Shown here piece after piece: positions 50,840-53,800 of a stretch of DNA of 64,000 nt (positions are counted from its first letter, which is position 1; every line of letters begins with the position of its first letter). Source of the stretch: Nannochloropsis salina CCMP1776 (taxonomy: Eukaryota > Sar > Eustigmatophyceae > Eustigmatales > Monodopsidaceae); assembly GCA_004565275.1 (NCBI GenBank), contig SDOX01000122.1:48090-112089 (forward strand). The letters are read 5' to 3'. The translations under genes were made by a program, and so were the position numbers. The notes under the pieces were generated by a model. It was given only the letters and a program-made list of their open reading frames with translations, was not told the DNA's origin and did no database searches.

Positions 50840-53800
50840 ATGTTTCCTTCCGTTACTTGTCCTATCCTCCGTCGAGGCCGTCGACCTATGACATGCCTGT
50901 ACATGACCACCAAGCGCTCTTTGGCGAATAAAGTGTACGAGTCTGCCGCTGAAGCAATTCACGACATCAAAGACGGTAAGCATGTAAAAATTATCAATTC
51001 TACAAGTCCTCAAGATTGCACGGAAGTGAGGAAGAAAAAGTGCAATTGAAAAGCATGGAGCGCAGATTTTTTGGAAGAATGAGAGGGAGGGTGGAAGCGG
51101 ATGGGTACCAAGCGTCTCAAATGCTTAGATAATCTCAGGCGGAACAGACAGGCATAGGTGTAGACGATGGATTACAAACACAATCTCAAAGATATGTGCC
51201 CCGTAAAAAGTTTCGCGAAGGTCCTGTTCCCACGTACACGCGACAACACGCGCTTTGTACCCTCCACCCCACGGTCCTTCCTGTATTATCCACCATGCAC
51301 GCAGGAAGCAAGCTTTGCGTGGGAGGCTTTGGATTGTGTGGTATCCCGGAGAATTTAATTGCCGCACTCGTCCAGAAGGGCACGAAAGACCTGACGTGCG
51401 TCTCCAACAATGCCGGTGCGTCCGTCGGCCTGTATCCTTGCCGTTATCCTGCTCTGTCCCCCTTTCACACACGATTCATCGGTTTGCTGCAGCTTTCCTC
51501 CTATGGAAAACCTTTGTAATGATCTACTTTCACGAGTCTTGCTCTTTCCCACGAATCCCCCCCCTCCGTTCCCTCCTGCTCTGGGCCTCTTTTTCTGGCG
51601 TGCGTCCTCTCTCGTTCCCTCCCTCCCTCCCTCCCTCCTCTCTCCATACGTCTATCCCCTGCCACTATTCCCTGCAATTTCCACCCTTCACCTTCCGATC
51701 TACCCTACCCTTCTCCCTTTCTCCACGGTGCCCCCCTCTCTTGCTACAGGCGTGGACAATTTTGGCTTGGGGCTGTTGCTTCGGTCGAAACAAGTTAAGA
51801 GGATGATCTCGTCTTACGTGGGAGAGAACAAGGAATTCGAACGCCAATATTTATCGGGGGAACTGGAGGTAGGATGCATAGGGGGCAGAGACACGGGGAG
51901 GAAAGAGGCATATTCGGACGTGGTGTTTCGAAGCTCCGGGCAAGTGGGAGGAGGACGGGCAGGGAAGAGGAGACGGGGCCAGGACATGCTGGATACAGAG
52001 ATAGACACACGTTAATGTTATCCGGGAGGAGATAGAAGACAAAGCTTTTCCCTTTCCCCTTCATTCCGTCCTCTCCCTCTCATTCTCTTACCTCTTCTTG
52101 CCTCGCTGTCCCATTTTCCCGTCTATTACCCCATCAATCGCTCCCCGGAGCACCCACTCGTCTTTTTTATTCCCTTCCCCTCCCCTCTCTGTCTATCACA
52201 AGGCTCCCTACATCCTCCCCATCGATCTACCCTCCTTCCTTTCCTCCCTCCCTCCCTCCCTTTCTTAGGTGGAACTCACACCCCAAGGCTCGCTGGCTGA
52301 GAGGCTCCGTGCAGGCGGAGCCGGCATTCCCGCGTTTTATACTCCCACCGCGTATGGTACCCTGGTCGAAAAAGGTGGGTTTCCGATCAAATTGAATCCA
52401 GATGGTAGCACAGCGATTGGGAGCCAGCCGCGGGAGACCCGTAAATTCCAGGTAGCCAGGCTTCTTCTCCCTTCCTCCCTCCCTCCCTCCCTCCCTCCCT
52501 CCCTCCCTTCACCGCTTCCCCCGCGCTGCCTTCCTTTGATCTCAAAGTCTCCCAGCCCCCTTCGTTTCCATCTACCCATCGTCCCCTCATGAACTGTGGA
52601 AGTGCCTCCTTGTAGGCAGCGTACTCACTCCTCTCTTTTTCATCTCTCTCCCCTCTTCGCACCCGCCCTGCCCTCCCCCCCTCCCTCCCCAGGGTCGTAA
52701 TTACGTCATGGAGGAAGCCATCACGGGGGGATTTCAGTCTTGTGAAAGGGTGGAAGGCGGACACCAAAGGCAACGTCATTTTTCGTGGCACGGCGCGGAA
52801 CTTCAATCCCGACGCGGGTCTGTCCCTCCTTCCCTCCTCCCTCCCTCCCTCCCTCCCTCCCTCCCTCCCTCCCTCCCTGTCCCCTGTCCCTCCTTTCTCT
52901 CTCTTCCATTCCTTGCCATGCTTCCCATTTTTTATTTCTTTCACTTCCATGAACTATTTTCTACGTCTTCAGCCCGGGCCGGGAAGGTCTGCATTGTTGA
53001 AGTTGAGGATTTGCTTCAACCTGGCGATCTTCACCCGGACGAGGTTCATCTTCCGGGTATCTATGTCCATCGGATCGTCAAAGGCCCTCACCACGAGAAA
53101 CGCATCGAACGGCTCACAGTCACCAAGAAAGGAAGCAAAGAGAGCCAGGTTCGTTCTTTTCTTCCTGTGTATGCTCCCTCCCTCCTTATCTTCCTCCCCC
53201 TTCCTTCCCTCCCTCTGCCCCTCCCCTTGTCTGTCCTTCCCTCACACTCCCCCTGCCGCGTCGTGACAGCGCACGATGATCCTTCTTCATCGTTTCTTTG
53301 CTCCTTGTTTCCTTCTTTTTCCAGCGCCAGAATGTCTCAACTTCCTGTTCCCCTTTGCCCCTCCCGTCCTCCCTCCTCTCTCCTCCCCTTAGGGTGGCAA
53401 ATTGAACCCTGCTCGAGAGCGAATCGTGAAACGCGCAGCCTTAGAATTCGAAGACGGCATGTACGTCAATCTAGGGATTGGCATCCCAGTACTCGCCAGC
53501 AACTATCTGCCCGAAGGTAAGCAAGCTCTCCCTCGCTCCCCCCCTCCTCTTTTTCTCCCTCCACGCCACTCTTCGCCCCTGAAGGCACGCAGACTGTCTA
53601 GTGCAGACAATAAGACCACGGGGAAATGCATAGAAAGAGCATTGCAGGGCAAAAGTTGGATCCTGACGAGGCATCATTTCCCGCAGGCGTCTCTATCGAG
53701 CTCCAGAGTGAGAACGGCCTCCTCGGCATGGGCCCCTACCCGGAGGTACTTTCTTTCCCTCTAATCCTTCCTCCAGCCCCGCCCACACTTGTACACTCAT

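Follow-up and report, generated by a model that had tools for sequence, protein, structure and literature searches.

A one-base frame break in the SCOT gene of Nannochloropsis salina CCMP1776, probably an error in the draft consensus

Introduction

The closest described relatives of the gene reported here are the eukaryotic mitochondrial succinyl-CoA:3-ketoacid CoA-transferases (SCOT/OXCT1), in which the A and B domains are fused in one chain that carries the QSENG motif. Solved examples are 3dlx, recorded as succinyl-CoA:3-ketoacid-coenzyme A transferase 1 and taken by us to be the human enzyme, and 1m3e, which is presumably the pig enzyme. The bacterial counterparts, ScoA and ScoB, are separate chains (e.g. 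3cdk_A and 3cdk_B). Publications found to name Nannochloropsis together with 3-oxoacid CoA-transferase appear to deal with bacteria or mixed cultures. Broken frames in otherwise intact genes have a technical precedent as well: run-length errors in homopolymers of draft genomes are known for 454 data, and a corrector for them has reportedly been published.

Here we analyse a SCOT gene in a 64,000-nucleotide stretch of DNA from N. salina CCMP1776 (the window). Like the eukaryotic enzymes it has the A and B domains on one chain and carries the QSENG motif, but it differs from them by a frame change of one base in exon 5 and by a phase conflict between exons 10 and 11. Compared with the bacterial proteins it shows 53-60% identity in the best tblastn segment of 80 loci (the best 80 of 592), these differing from it in having the two domains on separate chains.

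Results

A thirteen-exon SCOT gene

Positions 50840-55415 of the forward strand hold a 13-exon gene for SCOT (Table 1). With the exons joined and an X placed at each of the two breaks, the best solved match of the protein was 3dlx (residues 10-476, E = 1.9e-203), and 1m3e was matched over the same residues (10-476, E = 3.4e-200); both the A and the B domain of the solved enzyme were matched full-length by the window protein. All six matches to PF01144 (CoA_trans) in the gene were above the cut-off. The sequence QSENGLLG in exon 8 aligned to QSENGVLG of 3dlx, and the Glu of its SENG motif is, we assume, the catalytic residue. The 12 introns as drawn all have GT-AG borders and measure 92-400 bases, and none of the 13 exons has an internal stop in its native frame. 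With exon 5 read in its own frame on either side of the break, 11 of the 12 junctions are in phase. The spliced exons nevertheless do not form one continuous reading frame: the frame changes within exon 5, meets a stop in exon 6 and is out of phase between exons 10 and 11.

Table 1. Exons of the SCOT gene and the site of the frame change, in window coordinates.
Feature	Position	Strand	Remark
SCOT exon 1	50840..50975	+	ATG start; putative start codon, presumed targeting peptide
SCOT exon 2	51305..51415	+	exon-joined protein match
SCOT exon 3	51750..51868	+	exon-joined protein match
SCOT exon 4	52269..52451	+	ends in phase 0
SCOT exon 5	52693..52817	+	carries the frame break
Six-G run	52725..52730	+	reading frame shifts +1 here
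SCOT exon 6	52973..53148	+	broken frame hits a stop at 52998-53000
SCOT exon 7	53393..53516	+	exon-joined protein match
SCOT exon 8	53687..53745	+	QSENG motif
SCOT exon 9	53936..54049	+	exon-joined protein match
SCOT exon 10	54348..54433	+	2 bases left at donor; second phase conflict
SCOT exon 11	54658..54782	+	requires 1 base from exon 10
SCOT exon 12	54875..54922	+	exon-joined protein match
SCOT exon 13	55296..55415	+	includes stop codon

Introns of the gene are rich in (CCCT)n and CT repeats, in line with the GC skew of 52001-56000, which at -0.279 is the most negative of the 16 four-kb stretches in the window. Tandem repeats were also observed elsewhere in the window: two copies of a 66-base unit at 1716-1845 (100% matches), three copies of a 56-base unit at 22912-23081 (97% matches) and five copies of a G-rich 28-base unit at 46445-46586 (87% matches).

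The frame break in exon 5

A first-pass annotation of this DNA had proposed a one-base frame break within a conserved SCOT exon at 52693..52810, and we recovered it as two conserved pieces in different frames of exon 5; the proposed start is that of the exon, but its end is not, as exon 5 runs to 52817. The switch had been placed correctly, in a G run that occupies exactly 52725-52730. Frame 0 continues the frame of exon 4 and gives the conserved reading ...YVMEEAITG up to this run, after which the +1 frame gives a conserved reading of 29 residues that joins exon 6. The donor GCGG/gtctgt joins exon 6 in phase only with this second frame, as had also been noted. In a Pfam search CoA_trans was matched by exon 4 together with the upstream piece of exon 5 (E 3.5e-15, profile 92-148) and by exon 5 in its +1 reading (E 8e-06, profile 146-177), whereas exon 5 read throughout in frame 0 gave no match to any family up to E = 1. 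The coding sequence as it stands specifies 233 residues, 195 of which precede the break, and then meets the stop at 52998-53000.

The two pieces had further been said to be continuous in SCOT enzymes. Bacterial relatives were collected with a SCOT protein search by tblastn, of which the best 80 of 592 confirmed stretches were kept, and the two exon 5 pieces were aligned apart by tblastn and projected to their ends. At 80 of these 80 bacterial loci, 0 nt lay between the pieces, which agrees with that statement and is far beyond chance. An initial regular expression for the break matched 2 of the 80 loci and was too narrow, and the tblastn of separate pieces was used in its place. A split two-subunit enzyme was also considered and ruled out, since the break falls within domain A instead of at the boundary with B.

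We listed single-intron GT/GC-AG options that might rejoin the frames: 54 in-frame options between exon 4 and exon 5, 11 extra introns inside exon 5, and 38 with another exon 5 donor or exon 6 acceptor. None of these 103 frame-consistent options retains both YVMEEAITG and the downstream piece, and alternative splicing was rejected for the exon 5 break on this basis; a cDNA joining the frames another way, named in the first-pass annotation as one case that would overturn the break, thus has no candidate among the single-intron options listed.

A second phase conflict between exons 10 and 11

The junction of exon 10 and exon 11 (54433/54658) holds a second phase conflict, absent from the earlier annotation. 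Exon 10 ends in ...PGKMVQ plus two bases and exon 11 requires one base before MGGAMDL, and the join puts the coding sequence out by one further base. Exactly one residue separates PGK-M-V/I (with small variations) from G-M/P-GGAM in 79 of 80 relatives (the best 80 of 592), locus L048 being the single one outside this pattern. Immediately ahead of the conflict stands a Q, against K in all relatives aligned there (Q381K). At the exon 10 donor the base before GT is C, where the other 11 of the 12 donors have G, and it scores 4.5 bits against 3.8-9.7 for those 11, from which the matrix was built. The conflict lies outside any long homopolymer.

Copy number and constraint on the protein

A PF01144 profile search of the assembly (26,503,672 bases in 103 contigs) returned six matches, all in the SCOT gene, and the 118-base exon stretch gave a single match; we saw no second SCOT copy that would relax selection. 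No close relatives were found in viral contigs, and no eukaryotic sister sequence in the sequences searched.

We then compared the window protein with its relatives (the best 80 of 592) in columns where 70 or more of the 80 were aligned. In columns with at least 95% agreement among the relatives, the mismatches number 11 of 167 for the window protein and 12 of 165 for 3dlx; in fully conserved columns the figures are 6 of 108 and 5 of 109. Judged by these columns, the window protein looks as constrained as a working SCOT. Beyond the frame change we found no decay in the form of stops, lost splice sites or more changes at invariant residues than 3dlx shows to any clear degree, the exon 10 donor being the one without the usual G. 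A protein constrained like a working enzyme implies that the frame break is either very young or absent from the organism; a very recent lesion may be compatible with the absence of decay.

How often do frames break elsewhere in the assembly?

The size, G+C and polypyrimidine-rich introns of the assembly used here would suit a Nannochloropsis/Microchloropsis-like alga. PMC6953503 describes an N. salina CCMP1776 assembly that combined 454 with Illumina data and came to 27.6 Mb in 194 scaffolds, a size and scaffold number that differ from those of the assembly used here. Positions 1-200000 of contig C2 contain nine N runs, among them a single N and two runs of exactly 100 bases. The assembly looks like a gapped, scaffolded draft, in which some N runs may be something other than gaps.

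Six conserved families (chaperonin, HSP70, class I tRNA synthetases, RNA polymerase beta, DEAD helicases and myosin heads) gave 125 match rows and 65,817 matched bases in the same assembly, with no in-exon frame break detected, in a test that scored the best candidates only (36 of 68 in one search), covered row pairs overlapping by less than 60 bases and would let a break near a domain edge escape. The closest neighbouring matches in different frames were 61 bases apart, as introns would leave, and the in-frame stops in 4 of the 125 rows were taken as read-through introns.

A frame-contrast test, using the trained base model of a frame HMM, covered both strands of the window and of contig C2:1-200000 (264 kb). 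At the middle threshold a frame change was called at 4 of 43 classifiable runs of at least six G, against 57 of 882 background positions, at the stricter threshold at 0 of 25 against 17 of 558, and at the laxer threshold at 19 of 79 against 270 of 1561, where the excess is small and uncertain. As a control, one G was added in silico to the runs called in frame, which flipped 39 of 39 and 25 of 25 of them. The shifted runs comprised four of at least six G, one of at least six C, three G5 and one C5 at the middle threshold, and one C5 at the strict threshold; we give them little weight because background positions shift at a similar rate. The reach of the test is limited in that it leaves the SCOT break itself unflagged, probably owing to the shortness of exon 5 upstream of the run. 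For calling indels, a splice-aware frame HMM was dropped, as it fragmented exons and called no breaks, including that in SCOT, and so had no power.

Frame errors thus look rare in this assembly, not absent, and picking out one broken gene in a window meets such an error even if errors are rare. The first-pass annotation had implied that, sequence quality seeming good, the break may be real. This is only half borne out: conserved coding sequence sampled elsewhere does look clean and frame changes are not clearly more frequent at G runs, but the second conflict, the undecayed protein and what looks like a gapped draft together fit a local consensus error at least as well as a real mutation.

Discussion

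We consider the frame break to be probably a consensus error of a draft assembly, with the length of the run wrong by one base. This is favoured because the break falls in a homopolymer, the protein shows no decay and the draft looks gapped, and we infer that the fault is in the sequence data and not in the DNA itself. The locus would then be an ordinary single-copy eukaryotic SCOT gene in which a local consensus error put an extra G into the six-G run, and the living alga would have an intact frame and make normal SCOT. Such an error would resemble those of 454 type in that a one-base length change in a run breaks an otherwise intact and conserved frame; it differs in being deduced from the sequence, and in being accompanied by a second conflict that is not in a long run. 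That second conflict speaks against a consensus error, as do the clean-looking coding sequence of the six families elsewhere in the assembly and the frame-contrast results at G runs, which make two errors in ~1.5 kb of coding sequence unusual unless errors cluster. Two errors in one gene would be rarer still unless local coverage were poor, which CT-repeat introns could cause; poor read coverage among the (CCCT)n-rich introns may have aided the error.

A real and very recent frameshift is possible, but we hold it to be distinctly less likely. Translation of SCOT would end at residue 233, in domain A, and leave the strain without the enzyme, and a haploid, asexually kept alga could carry a SCOT-null allele if ketone-body or leucine catabolism were dispensable in culture. 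In keeping with this, the given sequence is broken by every reading tried, the samples of coding sequence from other parts of the assembly are clean, and a second, separate phase conflict lies in the same gene. Against it, there is no amino-acid decay and there are no stops in the native frames, and a real loss would therefore have to be very recent; two indels without other damage would moreover be odd for neutral decay. We regard it as unlikely that two very recent lesions in the sole copy of the gene have deprived the strain of a working SCOT, as part of an ongoing loss of ketone-body or leucine catabolism.

Neither hidden splicing nor recoding or slippage found support. An unrecognised splice form that restores the frame is very improbable: for the exon 10/11 conflict alone, in-frame GT-AG options do exist, such as donor 54478 with the usual acceptor, which adds ~15 intron-derived residues, or donor 54434 with acceptor 54602, which also adds intron-derived residues, but donor 54478 reaches 0.1 bits where the 11 donors behind the matrix span 3.8-9.7, and its insert falls at the one-residue gap of 79 of 80 relatives (the best 80 of 592), while for exon 5 none of the 54, 11 and 38 single-intron options listed keeps both conserved pieces. 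Least credible of all is that +1 ribosomal frameshifting or RNA polymerase slippage at the G run keeps the gene working, for although the run is homopolymeric and each frame is open and conserved on its own side, 39 of 43 classifiable runs of at least six G in coding-like sequence keep a single frame, the shift site is not kept in the relatives, where 80 of 80 bacterial loci (the best 80 of 592) read straight through and join the pieces directly, and the exon 10/11 conflict is left unexplained.

A consensus error is the reading we prefer. The locus is an ordinary metabolic enzyme gene with no sign of a new mechanism, and the break is chiefly of concern to annotation: automatic gene prediction would cut the SCOT gene short, divide it or invent introns, and metabolic models of the alga would then be without SCOT. 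If the break were real, it would represent the recent loss of a metabolic gene in a culture strain, which would be interesting, if not a new kind of thing.
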